Source: a virus. From it: 64,000 nucleotides of DNA. Shown here in pieces: positions 8,480-22,609 of the stretch (position 1 is the stretch's first letter; each line of letters begins with the position of its first letter). The translations under genes and the position numbers were made by a program. The DNA lies in the IMG/VR virus record IMGVR_UViG_3300005337_000441, positions 124,001 to 188,000 of that record. One strand, 5' to 3'. A model generated the notes under the pieces. It saw only the letters and a list, made by a program, of their open reading frames with translations. It did no database searches and had not been told where the DNA came from.

Positions 8480-8540
8480 AGACAGCATAAACCCCCAGGA
8501 GACTCCTTCACGGGAGCTCCTGGGGGAATGTGCCATTCTC
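8480..8540. terminator. Bidirectional terminator
   Basis: Ten base pairs (CCCCCAGGAG / CTCCTGGGGG) around an internally pairing loop. Rightward it is followed by AATGTGCCATTCTCTTCTC; leftward by TTTATGCTGTCT. Both flanks resemble the recurrent TATGCCGTCT element. Confidence 0.75.
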
Positions 8541-8567: not shown

Positions 8568-9053
8568 TCAAGAAGGCTTACCTTGCGCCGCAGCACCCAG
8601 TGCTTTCTCAATGTCGCGGATGTCATTGCCCTTCTTGGTGATCCATCGCTCTGCTTTCTCGAACATCATTGCGACGATGTCAGTAGGCAGTTCCAGAAAT
8701 TCCACGAAGGTGAGTCCGAAGTACTCACGGACGTTGAGTTGATGGTAGCGGTCCATCAAGTCATCCAGCCTTGAGTCCTGGTTGATGTCCTCCGCATCGT
8801 GGAACGCCACAGATGCCAAAGGGCGGTAACCTTGGGGACTCAAATGGTTGTAGATGCCAAACCGGGTCTCAAAGAGATCCTGCATGGCAATTTTCATGTC
8901 GACAGACTCATCGACTTTCGGCAGTCTACCCAGCGACTCAGAAACGAAGTCATCCCCGTCGATGTAAGCAAGTCTATCTTGCTCCCATGCGAAGCGGATG
9001 TCTCCGATTCTTATCGTGTCGCGATTCTTTCGAGTCTCTGGGTAATCAATCCG
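8568..9053 (-). CDS. Probable -1 frameshift extension of the upstream chaperone-like gene
   Basis: An open frame of 161 codons lies in the -1 frame relative to the 516-residue upstream ORF and overlaps its end. It has no ATG until MKIAMQDLF, more than 50 codons in, yet the upstream codons (from RIDYPETRKN) read as normal protein. A slippery heptamer T TTT TTC in correct phase joins the two frames, giving a fusion of about 664 residues. The C-terminal part (LTFVEFLELPTDIVAMMFEKAERW) is short and helical, reminiscent of tail-assembly chaperone tails. Alternatively it is a separate ~105-residue gene starting at the Met noted. Confidence 0.6.
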   Translation of the reverse strand, partial: RIDYPETRKNRDTIRIGDIRFAWEQDRLAYIDGDDFVSESLGRLPKVDESVDMKIAMQDLFETRFGIYNHLSPQGYRPLASVAFHDAEDINQDSRLDDLMDRYHQLNVREYFGLTFVEFLELPTDIVAMMFEKAERWITKKGNDIRDIEKALGAAAQGKPS

Positions 9054-10561
9054 AAAAAAACTTGTGCCACATCCAGAGGAATGATGTTCGTGTGATGCGG
9101 GAACTTGTCGTTGCCGGTGTGGTCGGTGCCGCACTGCGGACACTTGAACACCGGGATACCGATCACGCTCGTCGTGGAGGTGGAGATGTAGTTCACGACT
9201 TCCAGCAGGAAGCGGTCACGGATCTCGTCGTCGGCGGTGAGCAGAGCGAGCATCTCGTCGACCGACTCGCGGTCATCGGTGATGTTGCCCTGGAATTCGA
9301 TCGACTCGATCCAGTGTGCGTACTGGCGCAGCGCCGAAGCCTGGCCTTGCAGCGTGATGGTGTTGTTGCGTTCGTTGGTCGACGCATCGATGCCGAGTGC
9401 ACGGTCGACGTTCTCGACGATGCCATTGATCCACTGGTGACCAGAGGAGATGTACTCGGTGATCGAGGGCGAACGCAGCGTGAAGGACACTTCATTCTGC
9501 TTGCCTTCGTTGACCGTGATGCGCTTGTGCTGCAGGCGAGCGAGCTCTTCCTTGTAGCGCTTGATCTCGGCCAGCGTCTTGAGCTTGGGCTGGCGCGAAG
9601 ACATGTGCGTCTTCTGCCATTCCGTCAGCGTCTTCATGTTGGTCCACTGAAGCTTCATGACGTTCAGCGTTTCCTTGAGCACGAAGTTGCACTTCTCGGG
9701 ATTGCTGATGCAGGCACGCTCGTAGAGGAAGCCGCGCGGATACATCGTGCAGACGAAACCCCACAGCAGGCTCGGAATGTCCTGGCAGACCACATGGTCA
9801 CGCAGGTTTTCCTTGTTGACGTCTTCGGTCTTGGTCGTCAGGTTGTAGACGTGGTCCAGAGCGAAGTCGACCAGGCGGTCGATGGTGAACGCCGTCATGT
9901 TGGAGTACATGAGGCCGTAGGAGGAGCGACCGAACTTGATCTTGTCGGCCATCATCGAGCGGTTGAGCTCGACGATCTCGGCTTCTGTGGGCGGCTTGAA
10001 CGTCACCCAGATGCCCGAATGCCACAGAGGCGCCTGAAACACCGTGCCGTGACCCAGGTGAGAGACCAGACGCAGCAGGGCGCGCTCACCCTTGATGTTC
10101 TGACCTTGGACTTCCTGGAACTGCGGCACCGAGCCGATCAGCGGACGACCACTGACTTGGTTGTTCTGGCGGAATTCGGAATCGGGCTCGGACATGGCAG
10201 CCACCAGAACTTCGTTCATGGTGTTGTAGTCCATGCCTTCACCCAGCACAGCCGACCAGCGACGAGCGTCAGGACTGTCGGTGAGCTTGATGTTGGGCGT
10301 GTGATCGATCGCTCGCACGGCCTTGCTGTCCAGGTCGCTGGGCAGGGCAAGTTGTTCGCCGCTGTCGCGCATCTCGGGCATGTTGACCGAGAAGTCCTGG
10401 ATGGCGTTGGTCTCGGCCACGACGACGACAGGTTCAGCAGCAGCCGGAGGCGGCACTTCACCGGACGGCGCAGGAGCAGCGTCAGGCGTCTCGTCCAGGA
10501 TCAGCGGAGGAACTTCTTCACCGGGCGGAGCCTTGTTCAGGGAGGGGTCTTCAGTGCTCAT
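9011..10561 (-). CDS. Zinc-ribbon virion/tail-assembly protein, zero-frame product
   Basis: A 516-residue protein with a disordered Pro/Ala/Glu N-terminus (~1-50), a long mostly helical body and a C-terminal zinc-ribbon-like segment (FKCPQCG followed by paired His) just before the stop. The Cys-X2-Cys near the end followed by IIPLDVAQVFF recalls T4 gp26-like baseplate-hub assembly proteins (weak, from memory). Its last codons include a slippery T TTT TTC that permits -1 shifting into a 161-codon extension, as many phage tail chaperones do. It starts 11 bases inside the preceding gene with GGAAGAC as ribosome site. Confidence 0.7.
   Translation of the reverse strand: MSTEDPSLNKAPPGEEVPPLILDETPDAAPAPSGEVPPPAAAEPVVVVAETNAIQDFSVNMPEMRDSGEQLALPSDLDSKAVRAIDHTPNIKLTDSPDARRWSAVLGEGMDYNTMNEVLVAAMSEPDSEFRQNNQVSGRPLIGSVPQFQEVQGQNIKGERALLRLVSHLGHGTVFQAPLWHSGIWVTFKPPTEAEIVELNRSMMADKIKFGRSSYGLMYSNMTAFTIDRLVDFALDHVYNLTTKTEDVNKENLRDHVVCQDIPSLLWGFVCTMYPRGFLYERACISNPEKCNFVLKETLNVMKLQWTNMKTLTEWQKTHMSSRQPKLKTLAEIKRYKEELARLQHKRITVNEGKQNEVSFTLRSPSITEYISSGHQWINGIVENVDRALGIDASTNERNNTITLQGQASALRQYAHWIESIEFQGNITDDRESVDEMLALLTADDEIRDRFLLEVVNYISTSTTSVIGIPVFKCPQCGTDHTGNDKFPHHTNIIPLDVAQVFFGLITQRLERIATR
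9053..9059 (-). other. Candidate -1 programmed ribosomal frameshift site (T TTT TTC)
   Basis: In the zero frame the codons read GTT TTT TTC GGA. The heptamer fits X XXY YYZ, so both tRNAs can re-pair on TTT TTT after a one-base backward slip, continuing at CGG in the downstream open frame. The zero-frame stop lies 14 codons later. Confidence 0.65.
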
Positions 10562-11153
10562 TGGGCTTGTCTTCCTTCACTTCGACGTCGGTGATGACGT
10601 TCGGGTCTTGTTCGGGCGTGAGCTGTGCGGCTTCTTCGTCGGCCAGCAGCTTGTTGCGAGCACGCAGCGTGAAGTCGGTGATGGTTTCCATCGCCGGGAA
10701 GACCAGCGCACGGAACTGCTCGTAGAGCAGCGTGTATTCCTGACCGCAACCCAGGTAGATGGTGAGCAGGCTCGCGTCGTGAACCTTGCCGCTGTACTGC
10801 TTGTGGCGGTCCTTGATGGCCACCAACGTGTCGCTGAAACGCAGCAGGTCGTCGGAGAGCGTCTGGATCGCAAGCGACAGCTCGGTGGTGTTGGTGAGCC
10901 GAGCGACGCGAATCGCAGCGACCGATTGGTTGACCTCGGTGCCGACGTTGATGATGCCCTGGGCGATCTCGTTGTACAGACCGTCCAAGCGACCCCAGTC
11001 CTGCAGACTCTGGCCATCGGGTTCCGGAACGTCGATGCCTTGCAGGACGAGATTTGCATGACCGCGCGCCATGAGACGATCGAGCAAAGGCGCTTCGGTG
11101 CAGCTCCCCTGGCGCACCTCGACGGGAGGAGTCGGTGTCGACTTGTTGTTCAC
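10551..11153 (-). CDS. Hypothetical virion/assembly protein, 200 aa
   Basis: Starts at GTG with GGAG 12 bases upstream. The body is almost wholly helical (AQGIINVGTEVNQSVAA, LRFSDTLVAIKDRHKQYSG), with an acidic C-terminus (TDVEVKEDKPNEH). No family recognised. It is the first gene of the minus-strand unit and overlaps the zinc-ribbon frameshift gene by 11 bases, so the products are probably made together; a tail or baseplate assembly role is inferred from context only. Confidence 0.6.
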   Translation of the reverse strand: MNNKSTPTPPVEVRQGSCTEAPLLDRLMARGHANLVLQGIDVPEPDGQSLQDWGRLDGLYNEIAQGIINVGTEVNQSVAAIRVARLTNTTELSLAIQTLSDDLLRFSDTLVAIKDRHKQYSGKVHDASLLTIYLGCGQEYTLLYEQFRALVFPAMETITDFTLRARNKLLADEEAAQLTPEQDPNVITDVEVKEDKPNEH

Positions 11154-11315: not shown

Positions 11316-12191
11316 ATGGACGAACTTTTGCAGTCTTTCGTGAGCACGTACTTCACGGAAGAACTTCAGCAGGAGATTCGCAGGAGCTTCTCGCTCTTCG
11401 ATTTCTTCGAATACGACCAAGCCTACGCAGGATTCCTCGACATCATCATGAATGAGTCGAACCTGGGTGGTGACGCGATGCGCGATCTCTTCATCGAGGA
11501 GCTGCATCGCAAATGCAACTTCGTGCTGGATCAGCACGAGCTCGAACTCTCGGAGGAAACCACCATCCCCGAGAAGAACGAGTTCATGCAAGCGCTCGCA
11601 CAGCTGCAGCACCTGGAAGACTACACCGGGGTGATCCGCACGCTGGAGAACATGGAGCAAGACGAGATGCAGTTCGCACAGATTGTGTCCGAACTCTCGA
11701 CGCTCAATGAAACCCAGGTGCTTTCTCTGGTTGTGAACTTCAACCCGCGTGTCCTCAAGATCTTGAAGGAGTTCATCTACTCCAAGGAGAGCGAGACGCC
11801 GGCTGAACCCAACGCCAAGTTGATCGCCAACCTGCGCATGTTCGATGCGGTGTTCGGCCAGAACCACATCGGCTACCACCTCATGCGCGCCGAGGTGCGT
11901 TTGAACGAACGCTTCGAGTCCTACCTGAGCTACGTCAAAGACGAACTCGTGGTGGAAGACGACGAGCAGTGCGCCCTCAACATCCTCTCGCTCATCTACC
12001 TGTCCAACGACGGGTTCAATTCGCCTCTGACGGTGTACCGCAAGTACAGCCATCATCTGCTCCAGAATCTGGACCGCGTCTCTCGTGTCGAAGTGAAGCT
12101 GCTGAACCTGCTCGGCCGCATGAACGAGCGCAAGCAGGCGGAGGACGAGAAAGCTCGACTCACCAACACCAACGTTGAGGTGTCTACATGA
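11316..12191 (+). CDS. Hypothetical protein upstream of the second RNAP subunit, 291 aa
   Basis: An acidic, all-helical protein (MDELLQSFVSTYFTEELQQE...) with many Glu/Leu heptad-like stretches and no recognised motif. Its stop overlaps the start of the beta-prime-C gene (ATGA), so the two are likely translated in a coupled way. That linkage makes an assembly partner or another component of the virion polymerase a reasonable guess, but nothing in the sequence proves it. Confidence 0.65.
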   Translation: MDELLQSFVSTYFTEELQQEIRRSFSLFDFFEYDQAYAGFLDIIMNESNLGGDAMRDLFIEELHRKCNFVLDQHELELSEETTIPEKNEFMQALAQLQHLEDYTGVIRTLENMEQDEMQFAQIVSELSTLNETQVLSLVVNFNPRVLKILKEFIYSKESETPAEPNAKLIANLRMFDAVFGQNHIGYHLMRAEVRLNERFESYLSYVKDELVVEDDEQCALNILSLIYLSNDGFNSPLTVYRKYSHHLLQNLDRVSRVEVKLLNLLGRMNERKQAEDEKARLTNTNVEVST

Positions 12192-13489
12192 AGAAGCTGG
12201 ATTACCTCAAGCTCTTTTTCCAGCACAGGCTCTTCACCAAGAAGGCCATGCTGATCACGATGTTCAGCGTGACACGGACAGACTCGGGCAATCAGTCACC
12301 GTACCTGTACAAACTCGTGCCGCAACCCTGGGGCTATTCGTACTACGACGAGAAGATGGAGCTGCAGAAAATCGACGACTCCGTCGCCAATCAACCGCTC
12401 TTCACTTTCAAGGACCGGATCAACATTGATCCTTCCTGGATCGAGAACCTCTCCGAGGCGATCGAGACGAGCGTGGGCAACCTGCTCTTCAATCACTTCT
12501 GCGTGGTGACTGGCTTCGGCTCGAAGTTCCCCTACGTGCAAGGTCGCACCTCGGTCTCCAAGCTCGAAGACAAGATCGCCGAGCGGCTGCGCGACACGCC
12601 TGCCACGGATGCTGAACGCTCCACCGAGTACTTCTACTGTGACGAGTACCTGCGTTTCGTCGATGCGCTGGAGGACTTCAAGTCCCTCTCGCAACTCGCC
12701 GCCTGGTCCGCCACTCGCAAAGCTGTCCTTCCTCCCAAGGGTCTGGACGCTTTCAAGAAAGAACTGCTTGCCAAGTACAAAGGCAAACTCGACGATCCGG
12801 TGGAGATCGCCAAGTTCGAAAAGGAGCTCCTCGCTTTCGATGCGGAGTACCTCAAGGACGATCCGGCGTTTGGCACCTTCCTCTCGGGCAAGATCACCAA
12901 CACTGCTCGCAAGAAGCTCTTCCTCACGATGGGCAATGAGCAAGGGTTTGGTGATCCGCTGCGTGCCAACCCCGTGACCAACTCACTGCATGAGGGTTGG
13001 CCCACGGACGCCAAGCAATTCACTGCGATGATGAACGGTCTGCGGGTGGGTTCTTTTGCTCGCGGCTCTGAAACCATCAAGGGTGGTGTGTCGGCGAAGT
13101 ACCTGCTGCGCGCTGCCAACAATTTCAAAATCGACGACACCGACTGCGGAACTCAGTTCGGCATTCCTCGCGTCTACAACCACGACAACGCCGAGCAATT
13201 GGCCAAGCGTTCGGTCATCGAAAACGGTCGAAGCGTGCTGGTGGAAAATGCCGAGCAAGCGGGGAATTATCTGGGAAAACAGCTGCGGGTTCGCAGTCCC
13301 ATGTATTGCAAATTGCCTGGTGACGTCATCTGTAAGGTGTGCGCCGGCAATCGTCTTGCACAGTACCCAACCGGTCTCACCATCCCGCTCACCGAGATTT
13401 CAGCGATGATTCTCGCAGCGTCGATGAAGAGCATGCACACGTCAGGCACAAGCACCGCCAAGCTTGACATTCAAAAGAGCATTTCTTGA
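12188..13489 (+). CDS. RNA polymerase beta-prime subunit, C-terminal half (virion RNAP type, phiKZ gp80-like)
   Basis: A second, divergent beta-prime C-half of 433 residues. EGWPTDAKQFTAMMNGLR at ~269-286 and the following AKYLLRAANNF match the trigger-loop/bridge region. The four zinc cysteines are again complete: C320 in DTDCGTQFG, C374, C382 and C385 in MYCKLPGDVICKVC. ISAMILAASMKSMHTSGT at ~404-421 corresponds to the GVIAAQSIGEPGTQ.T.RTFH region. It is much shorter than the first copy and ends soon after this point. By size and position after the helicase it fits the packaged (virion) polymerase that transcribes early genes; that assignment is inference. Confidence 0.82.
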   Translation: MKKLDYLKLFFQHRLFTKKAMLITMFSVTRTDSGNQSPYLYKLVPQPWGYSYYDEKMELQKIDDSVANQPLFTFKDRINIDPSWIENLSEAIETSVGNLLFNHFCVVTGFGSKFPYVQGRTSVSKLEDKIAERLRDTPATDAERSTEYFYCDEYLRFVDALEDFKSLSQLAAWSATRKAVLPPKGLDAFKKELLAKYKGKLDDPVEIAKFEKELLAFDAEYLKDDPAFGTFLSGKITNTARKKLFLTMGNEQGFGDPLRANPVTNSLHEGWPTDAKQFTAMMNGLRVGSFARGSETIKGGVSAKYLLRAANNFKIDDTDCGTQFGIPRVYNHDNAEQLAKRSVIENGRSVLVENAEQAGNYLGKQLRVRSPMYCKLPGDVICKVCAGNRLAQYPTGLTIPLTEISAMILAASMKSMHTSGTSTAKLDIQKSIS

Positions 13490-17344: not shown

Positions 17345-17468
17345 GTGGGAGACCCCTAACCGGGTCTTCTTCTCCTCAGAGGACTGTTGAGAGATAGGCT
17401 GGTCGGTCTCCCTATCCTCACCCCCTGTTCACGCCACCTCCCTCACCGGAGGTGGCTCTTTTTTTTTG
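17345..17468 (+). terminator. Cluster of three hairpins ending in a strong terminator
   Basis: Three successive stem-loops: GAGACCC/GGGTCTTC, GATAGG/CCTATC and GCCACCTC/GAGGTGGC, the last with a run of nine or more T. The first two lack T runs. The 134-base gap holds no convincing gene; the structured stretch could be a 3' UTR or a small RNA. Confidence 0.6.
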
Positions 17469-19096: not shown

Positions 19097-19272
19097 TTTG
19101 CTGCTTCCTTTACAGCCGCCTTCTCCAGCTTGAGACGGGCGCGGCGGCGCTGTTGAGTTTGGCGGTTCTTCGCCTTGAGTTTTTCCCAAGGTGTCAAAAC
19201 ACCAGAGTTTTTGAACAAGTCCGGCGGACCTCCCACCCAGACCGTCTTGATTTCGGGTTTGTCAGATTCCAT
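19093..19272 (-). CDS. Small basic protein, 59 aa
   Basis: Starts inside the end of the polymerase-fragment gene and stops in a GTGA overlap with the next. The N-terminal half is neutral; the C-terminal half is a basic helix (WEKLKAKNRQTQQRRRARL) suited to nucleic-acid binding. Such tight overlaps argue for a coordinated three-gene operon. No family recognised. Confidence 0.6.
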   Translation of the reverse strand: MESDKPEIKTVWVGGPPDLFKNSGVLTPWEKLKAKNRQTQQRRRARLKLEKAAVKEAAK

Positions 19273-21061
19273 CGCGCATGAACTGTTCAAGAAGCTGATC
19301 AGGCTTCGGGAAGTTGAACATCGTCGTGGCGTATTCCAAGGCATTCATCGATCCCAGCAGCAGATTCATGTTCTGATACCGGAACGTCATCTCCTTGACA
19401 CCGATCACGTCGATGATCTCGCGTTTTGTAGAACCCTTGCTCACGTTGGCAACAGTGGTGGCCGTAGGGTAAGCCGACACCTCGTCGCTGTCGTAAACGA
19501 AAGTCCGGATGTTGGTCAGAAGCGAGGGGTCCTCCTTGATCAGAGGCAGACCCAGCACTGACATGTGTGCAGGCAGTGTGACAATCCAGCGCTTCAAGCT
19601 CAGTGTGGAGCGAGCACGCACCGGCGCATCAGCGTTTTCTTCGTCCTCGTTGGTCAGATCTTGCTCGGCCGAGGTGTTCTCTTCTTCTTCCTCGTCGTCC
19701 AGGTCAGCGTCCAAGTCCTCTTCCTTGTCGGAGACGGCTTCGACTTTCTCCTGATAGCCAACCGTGCCCATCACGCAACCCTCTTCGAGTGCGTAGTAGT
19801 GCAGGTTGTCCATGATGCGACGCGGCTGAGACTTGAAGTTGGGGAAGTCCGTCGTTCCAGCAAAGCCAGGCAGCGAGTAGATCAAGTCCTTGGTCTTGTC
19901 GTCAAGCTCCAGCATCGACAAGCAGTCAAAGATGTTGTACACCATGTACTCGATCTTGAACTTGGTCTGCATGAACTTGTGCCACTCCAGCCGCTCCAGG
20001 CCATCGGCCTCGGCGAACTTGAGCTTGCGAATGCCCAGGATCTTCTGCAAGATCCAGTCCAGGCTGTAGGAGGGTTCCTCCTGTTCACCCAGTCGCAAGT
20101 GCTTGTACACGCACATCGAGTCAATGACATAGTAGCTGGCCGTGCAGCGCAGCGTGTGCCATTGAGAGGCCGGATTGATCGGCTTGACCTTGCCGGAGGC
20201 CGTGACCTGCTTGGTCGGACCCGGCATCCACTTGCAGATGCGGTACTCCATCGGCAACGACGGATCGCACAGCACCTCACGGGGATCGATGCCGTACTTC
20301 TCCAACATGGAGATGATCTTCGGGATGTCGAAGGAGATGTTCCAAATGGCCAGCCAGTCAGGCTTCCATTCGTGCACCTTCTTGAAGACCGCCTTGAGCA
20401 TGTCGATGACGTTTTCTGCGATGTGCAGCGTGACCTTCATCTGGTGCTTGTCGACGTACTCCCCGATGTACTTGCTTACCGCGGCGTCCAGGCGAGCTTG
20501 CACATCGTGCAGGCCTTCCAGGAAGCGCTTCTCCACCGAGATGAAGATCTCTTTGCCGAAGATCACCGTGGTCATGAGGATGTCCTCAAACCCCGGATCA
20601 CTCTTGTCGCGGGTCACATCGGACTCCACGTCCAAAATGCAACGGGTGTAGCCTGAGACCATGGTCGGCCACTTGACCATGTACTGGCGTTTGATGAGCG
20701 AAGACGCTGTGATGTCCGCACCGTAGATGTACGGTGAGTTCAGCAGCTTCTTGAGCGGGTCCGGAGACCAGCCCTTGCCGATAGCCCTGGCGATGTCGTC
20801 ACGCAGCTTGGACTGGGTGACTTCCTTTTGCATCACATGGTCAAGGCTTTCCCACTCCTTCTTTTGCTGGTGGTCGCGCTTGCTCTGCTGTGTGATCCAG
20901 TACGGACGCTTGAAATCCTGCACCAAACGCAGGTTGGGTTTCATCGTGCCGTCTTCGTAATGGACCTGTTCCTTGACGACGTGGATATCAGGAGTATCGC
21001 TGTGTCGAGAAGGCACGTGAATCGCAAAGCGACACTCACGTCCTACGATTTTACTTTCCAT
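19262..21061 (-). CDS. B-family DNA polymerase fragment: 3'-5' exonuclease plus start of palm
   Basis: Exo I is LDVES with D144 and E146; Exo II is NISFD (N241, D245); Exo III is YNIFD (Y375, D379). Near the C-terminus DSDEVSAYPTA (524-534) matches pol motif A (D..SLYPS) with D526 as catalytic Asp. The following residues also match the T4-like stretch (ANVSKGS versus VNISPET). The protein then ends at residue 599, before the fingers, motif B (K...NS.YG) and motif C (DTD). Full B-family enzymes are usually ~800-1000 residues. A very acidic insert lies at ~445-478. Either the rest is encoded elsewhere (split enzyme) or this acts as an exonuclease. No second half is in this window. Confidence 0.78.
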   Translation of the reverse strand: MESKIVGRECRFAIHVPSRHSDTPDIHVVKEQVHYEDGTMKPNLRLVQDFKRPYWITQQSKRDHQQKKEWESLDHVMQKEVTQSKLRDDIARAIGKGWSPDPLKKLLNSPYIYGADITASSLIKRQYMVKWPTMVSGYTRCILDVESDVTRDKSDPGFEDILMTTVIFGKEIFISVEKRFLEGLHDVQARLDAAVSKYIGEYVDKHQMKVTLHIAENVIDMLKAVFKKVHEWKPDWLAIWNISFDIPKIISMLEKYGIDPREVLCDPSLPMEYRICKWMPGPTKQVTASGKVKPINPASQWHTLRCTASYYVIDSMCVYKHLRLGEQEEPSYSLDWILQKILGIRKLKFAEADGLERLEWHKFMQTKFKIEYMVYNIFDCLSMLELDDKTKDLIYSLPGFAGTTDFPNFKSQPRRIMDNLHYYALEEGCVMGTVGYQEKVEAVSDKEEDLDADLDDEEEEENTSAEQDLTNEDEENADAPVRARSTLSLKRWIVTLPAHMSVLGLPLIKEDPSLLTNIRTFVYDSDEVSAYPTATTVANVSKGSTKREIIDVIGVKEMTFRYQNMNLLLGSMNALEYATTMFNFPKPDQLLEQFMRDGI

Positions 21062-21086
21062 GGAGCGATCCAGTAATCAATTGGAC

Positions 21087-21112
21087 ACCAGGAGCTCAGC
21101 GTGGGCTCCTGA
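21087..21112. other. Hairpin in divergent intergenic region
   Basis: CAGGAGC and GCTCCTG flank a nine-base loop, upstream of both the polymerase fragment (minus) and the metallopeptidase (plus). No T run follows on either side. A regulatory or terminator role cannot be decided. Confidence 0.35.
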
Positions 21113-21220
21113 AGTACGATCATATAGCTTTAAGGGAGAGAAGATGGTTGTCTTCCCTTCCCGATTCAGATGATCTTGCGTTGTGCGAGTTTTTCCAAAG
21201 ACAACCTTAAGGACAGGCAA

Positions 21221-22609
21221 ATGGCCACTTTGCTGCCGCGCATGACCCCCAGAATGCGCAATATCGCCATGGAGTTCCTGGCATTCCAGGAAGGCGACAA
21301 GATCGGCGTTCAGATGGAGGAGCAAGTCTCCAAGATCTTGAACCGGCTCAAGGACGAGCCCAAGATCAAAGACATCGACCTGCCCGACACTCCGGAAGGC
21401 AAGGCGCTCACCAAACTCATCTTTGACCGCTTCGGCATCAAAGTGGACTTCATCTGCGACGAGCATCTGGCGGCCATCATTCCGTTCTACTCGAACCGCA
21501 ATCACATCTTTCTGCACGAGATGCTGCGCGGTGACATCACCAAGCGCGACCAGCAGAAGATCCTGAACCAGTCGCAGACCCAGAAGGGCGTCGTCAACCG
21601 CGAGAAGGTCTACGTCAGCGGCATCTTCTCCGAGTACGAGCACGAGCTCTACATGAACTTCCGGCAACTCGCTGCGATCAATCTGACCGCACCCGAGATC
21701 GTCGCCGTGCTGCTGCACGAGCTGGGCCACGCCTTCAATGCCTGCGAGTACTCCGACCGCATGGAGACCAACAACCAGGTCCTGGCCGATGTGTTCCGTG
21801 AGATGACCCAGTCCAACGACAAGCGCGACATGGTCTACATCTACCGCGAACTCAAGAAGGTCAACAAGGACGTGACCGAAGCCGAAGTCGACACCATCGT
21901 CAACGGCAACCGCGTCATCGCCGGCTACACCTGGTTCAAGGTCATCATCGGCTCCGTGCAAGGTCAGCTGAGCAACCAGACCTACTCGAAGACCTCCTTC
22001 GAAGCGGGTTCGGACATGTTCGCCAACCGCTTCGGCTACGGTCGTCAGATCGTCTCGGCGCTGGACAAACTCAACAAGAGCAGCTTCTGGACGAGCGGCT
22101 CGCACACGCAGATCTGGTTGAGCTACTTCCTGCAGACCATGAGCTTCGTGCTGACCGCACTGATGATCCACAACCGTCTGGCGATGGGTGGCTTCTTCCT
22201 GGCCTTCGGTCTGACGGGATTCGGCGTCATCACGCTCACCCATGCGCTGTGGATGATCTTCATCCTGGTCATGGCCATTCGTGCCAGTGGTGAAGACGTG
22301 CGGGATTTCTCCTACGACGAAATCAAGGTTCGCTACGGTCGTATTCGCAACGACCTGATCGAATTCCTCAAGCGCGCCAAGCTGAGCACGGACCGCACGC
22401 GTGAAGTGGTCGACTCCATCAAGGACATCGACGCCGTCATTCACACGTCCGCCGAAGCGAAGAACCTCTACACCGTGTTGGCCAACGTGATCTTCCCTGG
22501 CGCTCGCGCCGGTGCGAACTCCGTTGCCGAGCAGCAACTGCTGGAGAAGTTGACTTCCAGCGATCTGTTCCTCCATTCGGCTGAACTCCGTTTGGCCGCC
22601 GCCGAGTGA
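21221..22609 (+). CDS. Membrane zinc metallopeptidase (M48-like)
   Basis: The active site is HELGH at 166-170, with a candidate third ligand E261 in FEAGSDMFANRFGYG, the M48/gluzincin spacing pattern. Two to three hydrophobic segments at ~300-352 (SYFLQTMSFVLTALM, FFLAFGLTGFGVITL, ALWMIFILVMAI) make it a membrane protein, followed by a soluble helical C-terminus. The start chosen is the ATG after AAGGAC; an upstream ATG adds 17 residues without a ribosome site. It could process phage or host membrane proteins, or be virion-associated; the substrate is unknown. Confidence 0.72.
   Translation: MATLLPRMTPRMRNIAMEFLAFQEGDKIGVQMEEQVSKILNRLKDEPKIKDIDLPDTPEGKALTKLIFDRFGIKVDFICDEHLAAIIPFYSNRNHIFLHEMLRGDITKRDQQKILNQSQTQKGVVNREKVYVSGIFSEYEHELYMNFRQLAAINLTAPEIVAVLLHELGHAFNACEYSDRMETNNQVLADVFREMTQSNDKRDMVYIYRELKKVNKDVTEAEVDTIVNGNRVIAGYTWFKVIIGSVQGQLSNQTYSKTSFEAGSDMFANRFGYGRQIVSALDKLNKSSFWTSGSHTQIWLSYFLQTMSFVLTALMIHNRLAMGGFFLAFGLTGFGVITLTHALWMIFILVMAIRASGEDVRDFSYDEIKVRYGRIRNDLIEFLKRAKLSTDRTREVVDSIKDIDAVIHTSAEAKNLYTVLANVIFPGARAGANSVAEQQLLEKLTSSDLFLHSAELRLAAAE

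Follow-up and report, generated by a model that had tools for sequence, protein, structure and literature searches.

A probable two-form assembly chaperone of giant phages

In lambda (G/GT) and P2 (E/E'), a -1 frameshift late in the first ORF produces a minor chaperone with a C-terminal extension; the P2 slip site is T TTT TTG. T4 has gp26, whose C-terminus is CPECGKTHAHVIRGLKEFFELL, and its paralogue gp51, in which DIVDVFKLL is followed by a helical tail. Both belong to PF12322, and they are encoded by two separate, divergently oriented genes without any frameshift. The two proteins are listed among the chaperones of hub assembly, and gp51 is absent from the virion (PMC3004832). The gp51 of cyanophages and marine vibriophages is missing its first ~200 residues and retains the C-terminus (Sullivan et al. 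2010, PMC3037559).

The locus described here resembles both systems. It is likely that it uses a programmed -1 frameshift to make two forms of a chaperone for assembly of the baseplate hub and tape measure, counterparts of gp26 and gp51, with the fusion and the chaperone role both being inferred. The slip site, the open -1 frame and the purifying selection acting on it, the conservation in 81 homologues and the parallel in T4-type phages are demonstrated at the level of sequence. No published description of this giant-phage frameshift was found, although subscription papers and preprints lay outside the search and novelty is thus unproven.

The locus and its relatives

The window, the whole 64,000-nucleotide stretch of DNA that was analysed, belongs to a virus contig of 215,768 bases from a giant, phiKZ-type phage. 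On its minus strand, a frame-0 ORF (10561-9011) encodes the putative short product of 516 aa, which ends in ...IIPLDVAQVFFGLITQRLERIATR*. The slippery heptamer T TTT TTC (9053-9059, minus strand) lies in X XXY YYZ phase within the codons ...CAA GTT TTT TTC GGA TTG ATT...CGA TAA, where TTT TTC encodes the FF (F502 F503) of GTTTTTTTC. The original prediction, that the ORF ends 14 codons past GTT TTT TTC and that the heptamer is placed for a slip into an open frame of 161 codons, is confirmed by the sequence: 13 sense codons and the stop follow, and the -1 frame (8568-9053, minus strand) stays open for 161 codons before its own stop at 8568, so that 503 + 161 residues would give a long product of 664 aa with this extension as its C-terminal domain. 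The claim that about 55 codons of the -1 frame offer no usable start also holds, since the earliest ATG, GTG or TTG is codon 53 and no Shine-Dalgarno match accompanies it. In-phase TTT TTN occurs only three times in the 21 likely genes of the window, in which TTT accounts for 50 of 364 Phe codons; the slip site of the window is beyond chance. The predicted tryptic junction peptide of the fusion is FPHHTNIIPLDVAQVFFR, its frame-0 counterpart is FPHHTNIIPLDVAQVFFGLITQR, and the equivalent fusion peptide of phage Goslar is YYDLIALDVPQLFFYPK.

The frame-0 protein belongs to the family of phiKZ gp77, PhiPA3 gp074 and 201phi2-1 gp136; the PhiPA3 annotation equates its gene with phiKZ gp077, 201phi2-1 gp136 and EL gp47. 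By tblastn it was matched in 213 phage records, mainly from phiKZ-type giant phages, and the -1 protein in 40. The frame-0 and -1 parts match PHROG 4585/8054 and 12109, respectively, all of unknown function (E=8.5e-102 for 4585 and E=4e-21 for 12109 in the window). IMG/VR yielded no relatives when searched with the window protein or with LucasX alone, whereas subgroup alignments did find them. The family is kept throughout the phiKZ-type relatives examined, yet it is annotated as two unrelated hypothetical genes, and because of this annotation neither protein databases nor mass-spectrometry searches include the long product.

Conservation was surveyed in 81 sequences, comprising 25 GenBank phages, the window and 55 IMG/VR contigs, the last including a few isolate genomes; one sequence (L042) was left out because the frame of its match was broken or incorrect. 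Some of the counted sequences are closely related, so they do not represent 81 independent events. A Phe codon able to re-pair with UUU one base back stands at the equivalent place in all 81, and each has a -1 frame without stops over 150-187 codons; the -1 tails of all the relatives are homologous. Conservation of the heptamer and of the -1 frame had been proposed as a check, and relatives carrying the second ORF on its own start without a slippery site had been named as the refuting case; against these 81 homologues the prediction was not refuted.

Five further loci come from bacterial assemblies. Four of them keep the site and the frame, and the fifth copy is broken by indels with a T7 site remaining; this homologue, in a Caballeronia terrestris draft contig (L121), still has ACTTTTTTTACC and part of the -1 domain. 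Outside the 81, the 167 kb Halocynthia phage JM-2012, which falls below 200 kb, carries CTT TTT TTT ATC and an open -1 frame (L103:2159-4098). Relatives of the protein were also met in Burkholderiales assembly contigs (L117-L121) from Caballeronia, Paraburkholderia, Rhodoferax and Polynucleobacter, a hint as to the host range of the phage group of the window.

Relationship to T4 gp26 and gp51 and probable function

The frame-0 protein contains a Cys-X2-Cys (CPQC; 9131-9142, minus strand), the first half of a CPxCG...IPLDVxxFFxL C-terminal motif that it has in common with T4 gp26. Comparison of the gp26-family profile with the frame-0 profile gave a probability of 72% (E 3e-5), confined to the CPxCG...FFxL end, over the last ~40 columns; its score of 42 was not reached in any of 100 column shuffles, the maximum being 23.5. 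Past the F motif, the long form would carry a helical tail as gp51 does. Homology of the two tails is no more than suggested, the match being weak, although in the expected register: E=0.35 with gp51 alone and E=0.001 with a combined tail profile. The gp51-type tail profile scored 22.3 against the -1 profile, which the best of 200 shuffles approached (20.6) and none reached. Only family profiles matched; as single sequences, neither gp26 nor gp51 matched the first, nine-member profile.

Confident AlphaFold models were obtained for the frame-0 protein (pLDDT 84, pTM 0.83) and for the -1 domain, which is predicted to be helical (pLDDT 83). The frame-0 model had no match among solved structures, and searches of Pfam and PDB with either part returned nothing useful. 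In BFVD the frame-0 model matched members of its family and, after these, entries named 'Baseplate hub assembly protein, bacteriophage T4-like' (E 2e-4 to 3e-3, the best at 2.4e-4, with a target TM of up to 0.58). The original hint of a gp26-type hub factor is therefore borne out as remote similarity only, through the C-terminal profile match and the T4-like fold matches. The jumbo protein differs from gp26 in a far longer N-terminal part, in a longer -1 domain and in the absence of a PF12322 score: none of 53 homologues rose above the Pfam cut-off, and a search for PF12322 in its own genome found no match, though its control was also silent, which makes that search uninformative alone.

The suggested likeness to the lambda G/GT device stood in part. 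A -1 site and frame are present in 81 of 81 homologues and the shift falls, as in G/GT and P2 E/E', late in the first ORF to give a C-terminally extended form, but there is no detectable sequence homology to the lambda-type chaperones. Known chaperone families gave no convincing Pfam match, and fold matches to named tail assembly chaperones appeared only at E>=1. In the neighbourhoods seen, the giant-phage gene is not next to a tape-measure gene, and the position between the major tail protein and tape-measure genes was not met. Formal membership is thus met neither for PF12322 nor for lambda G/GT, and working like such a chaperone is kept apart from being one.

The conserved neighbours bear on function as well. 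Upstream of the frame-0 ORF, an ORF in the position of phiKZ gp78 (10551-11153, minus strand; start codon unchecked) has its stop overlapping the frame-0 ORF start by 11 nt and had no PHROG match. It is followed by a divergent neighbour in the gp79 position (11316-12191, plus strand; PHROG 5038 and synteny), annotated as 'head protein' in relatives, and by a gp80-like subunit of the phage multi-subunit RNA polymerase (12188-13489, plus strand; PHROG 2962, RNA polymerase beta subunit, E=7e-115). The order of gp80-like RNA polymerase, gp79-like head protein, divergent gp78-like gene, gp77-like gene and second ORF is found in the window and in most relatives; the SPN3US/Kwan-like group is an exception, with the polymerase downstream. 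No recognised tail genes were beside the frame-0 gene in the neighbourhoods seen, which hold RNA polymerase, head and helicase genes.

It could therefore be argued that the frameshift is real and that the protein serves the head, the packaged RNA polymerase or some other jumbo-phage function rather than a tail or hub chaperone, given that an RNA-polymerase subunit and a head protein are the conserved neighbours and that gp26 is less than half as long as the frame-0 protein. This remains a possibility, albeit an unlikely one, since it has to contend with the remote match to gp26 and gp51 in profile, fold and architecture. The best-supported function is that of giant-phage counterparts of the two T4 proteins, inferred from remote similarity and from the parallel architecture of a short and a putative long form. 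Both forms would act as chaperones when the complex of baseplate hub and tape measure is assembled, the short one corresponding to gp26 and the long one to gp51. Such recognition would give a probable function to PHROG families 4585/8054 and 12109. In 201phi2-1, gp138 and gp139 are marked as identified by mass spectrometry and gp136 and gp135 have no such note, as would be expected of a chaperone absent from virions, although this is no proof of absence.

The same layout in T4-type phages

Three T4-type gp26 genes only, from other families, were examined at nucleotide level. In cyanophage ACG-2014g, gp26 ends in GLASFFG*, encoded as TCT TTT TTC GGA TAG with the site T TTT TTC; Rhizobium phage RL2RES has GAT TTT TTG CAC TGA (T TTT TTG), and Salmonella phage BSP101 has GAG ATT TTC ATT TAA (ATT TTC). 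In all three, the -1 frame runs on into a gp51-like tail, of which the annotated piece is a small ORF of 31 aa in ACG-2014g and of 58 and 42 aa in the other two. The 31-aa 'gp51 base plate hub assembly catalyst' of ACG-2014g is the last part of the gp26 -1 frame past T TTT TTC (L115:2971-3872). The junction fusion peptides of the three cases match 545, 267 and 342 phage records, and in the ungapped rows checked an n-residue peptide is spread over two pieces totalling 3n-1 nt, which is what a -1 shift requires. The gp26 of Kyanoviridae cyanophages, Kuttervirus and Pootjesviridae has the giant-phage layout, with a Phe slip site at its end and the -1 tail as a small ORF; it differs in being shorter (230-267 aa, with a tail of ~55-65 aa). 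Frameshifting in these genes is inferred and has not been demonstrated. In Salmonella phage 38 (KR296692, 109239-109487), the Kuttervirus junction peptide was matched in one piece on exactly 3n nt, where relatives have 3n-1, which could reflect either a fused gene or a sequencing indel.

It is offered as an explanation for the reduced gp51 of cyanophages and marine vibriophages that it is the -1 tail of gp26. An evolutionary scenario that is favoured, if with less confidence than the frameshifted chaperone itself, places an ancestral hub and tape-measure chaperone gene with a -1 frameshift at the FF motif beneath the phiKZ-type and T4-type lineages. The frameshift would have persisted in most descendants, T4 and phages close to it would have exchanged it for two genes (26 for the short and 51 for the long form), and the 'truncated gp51' would be the gp26 -1 tail.

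Slip site and probable mechanism of the frame change

Strict T TTT TTN occurs in 68 of the 81 homologues, ten have G or A before TTT TTN, and three have a single in-frame TTT (CTT TTT ATT twice and GTT TTT ACC once) with the -1 capacity kept. The commonest heptamers are T TTT TTT (41), T TTT TTC (24), G TTT TTT (6) and G TTT TTC (3), and the rarer ones T TTT TTG (2), T TTT TTA (1) and A TTT TTC (1). The first Phe codon is TTT in 78 of 78 TTT TTN sites, as against 449 of 1339 Phe codons (34%) elsewhere in the same ORFs; since this motif served to locate the sites, what can fairly be said is that it was present in 78 of the 81 homologues. In every variant, the Phe-tRNA of the second codon re-pairs perfectly with UUU. 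Re-pairing of this second codon is inferred to be the common denominator, because pairing at the first codon would be imperfect where G or A precedes TTT TTN; unlike the lambda G/GT-type device, the G TTT TTC and A TTT TTC sites fit second-codon re-pairing alone.

It is proposed that most ribosomes would terminate at the frame-0 stop, releasing the 516-aa protein that ends just past the CPxC ribbon and the FF motif. A fraction would slip one base back with Phe-tRNA on TTT TTC and translate 161 further codons, giving 664 aa with the helical domain. This slip would occur in translation and need no more than the second Phe-tRNA re-pairing with UUU. On the comparative evidence, programmed -1 frameshifting is well supported, with little more certainty attainable short of an experiment, whereas the actual making of the fusion and the ratio of short to long form are inferences.

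The same fused product could arise by transcriptional slippage, the polymerase adding a U while copying the T run. Runs of 7-9 T are present in 58 of the 81 homologues, and the phage has multi-subunit RNA polymerases of its own, whose slippage behaviour is unknown. Seven homologues have only T5, which is short for transcriptional slippage, and these sites therefore argue against this route without excluding it. Moreover, what the sites share is the codon phase, by which a Phe codon can re-pair with UUU, and not the length of the run, and the RL2RES and BSP101 sites are a better fit to ribosomal slippage. Transcriptional slippage is thus regarded as improbable, and ribosomal slippage remains the preferred reading.

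A downstream pseudoknot or stem-loop was considered as stimulator and rejected. Folding of the downstream RNA, as the original prediction had advised, found no conserved structure: over the 60 nt folded, stability just past the site (mean z -0.26) showed no excess over controls (-0.30 to -0.80), and the stimulator, if there is one, is therefore not a conserved simple hairpin. Stable hairpins occur in individual cases (Goslar, L092 and L053/L054), none of them shared.

Coding character of the -1 frame

In GenBank, the two halves are drawn as separate hypothetical genes in nearly all relatives, with varying starts, and 201phi2-1 gp135 begins at the gp136 stop. Taken at face value, this would make the second ORF an independent gene, translated either from an internal start codon or through reinitiation once the frame-0 stop has been reached. 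The stretch ahead of any possible start speaks against it. From the slip site to the first start, the frame is open in all 81 homologues; dN/dS is 0.19 for the part that follows the frame-0 stop and precedes any ATG, GTG or TTG, against 0.15 for the remaining -1 ORF, values that are descriptive as the pairs overlap. By this measure, the -1 frame upstream of any possible start evolves as coding sequence under purifying selection. Among the opening 60 codons of the -1 ORF, a start led by a Shine-Dalgarno sequence is present in only seven homologues and absent in 74. An independent gene would also leave the T-rich Phe site at one position unexplained, and this explanation is considered very improbable by comparison with a programmed frameshift. 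That a sequencing or assembly indel splits a single ORF might be suspected of a homopolymer site in a virus contig from a public collection, but it is refuted by the 81-sequence survey, in which 25 GenBank phage records and 55 further contigs show this split at the equivalent position, and practically no weight is left to it.

Other features of the window

Downstream of the locus, between two convergent genes, an inverted repeat CCCCCAGGAG...CTCCTGGGGG followed by TTT (8495-8535) looks like a terminator; a simple scan did not list this repeat. Homopolymer runs of 9 and 10 A or T are located at 17459 and 18781. On the minus strand, an ORF matching the DNA polymerase family PHROG 3011 (19262-21061) has a long ORF directly upstream on the same strand (21077-22576), and the DNA polymerase of the window may be split over the two (19262-22576).
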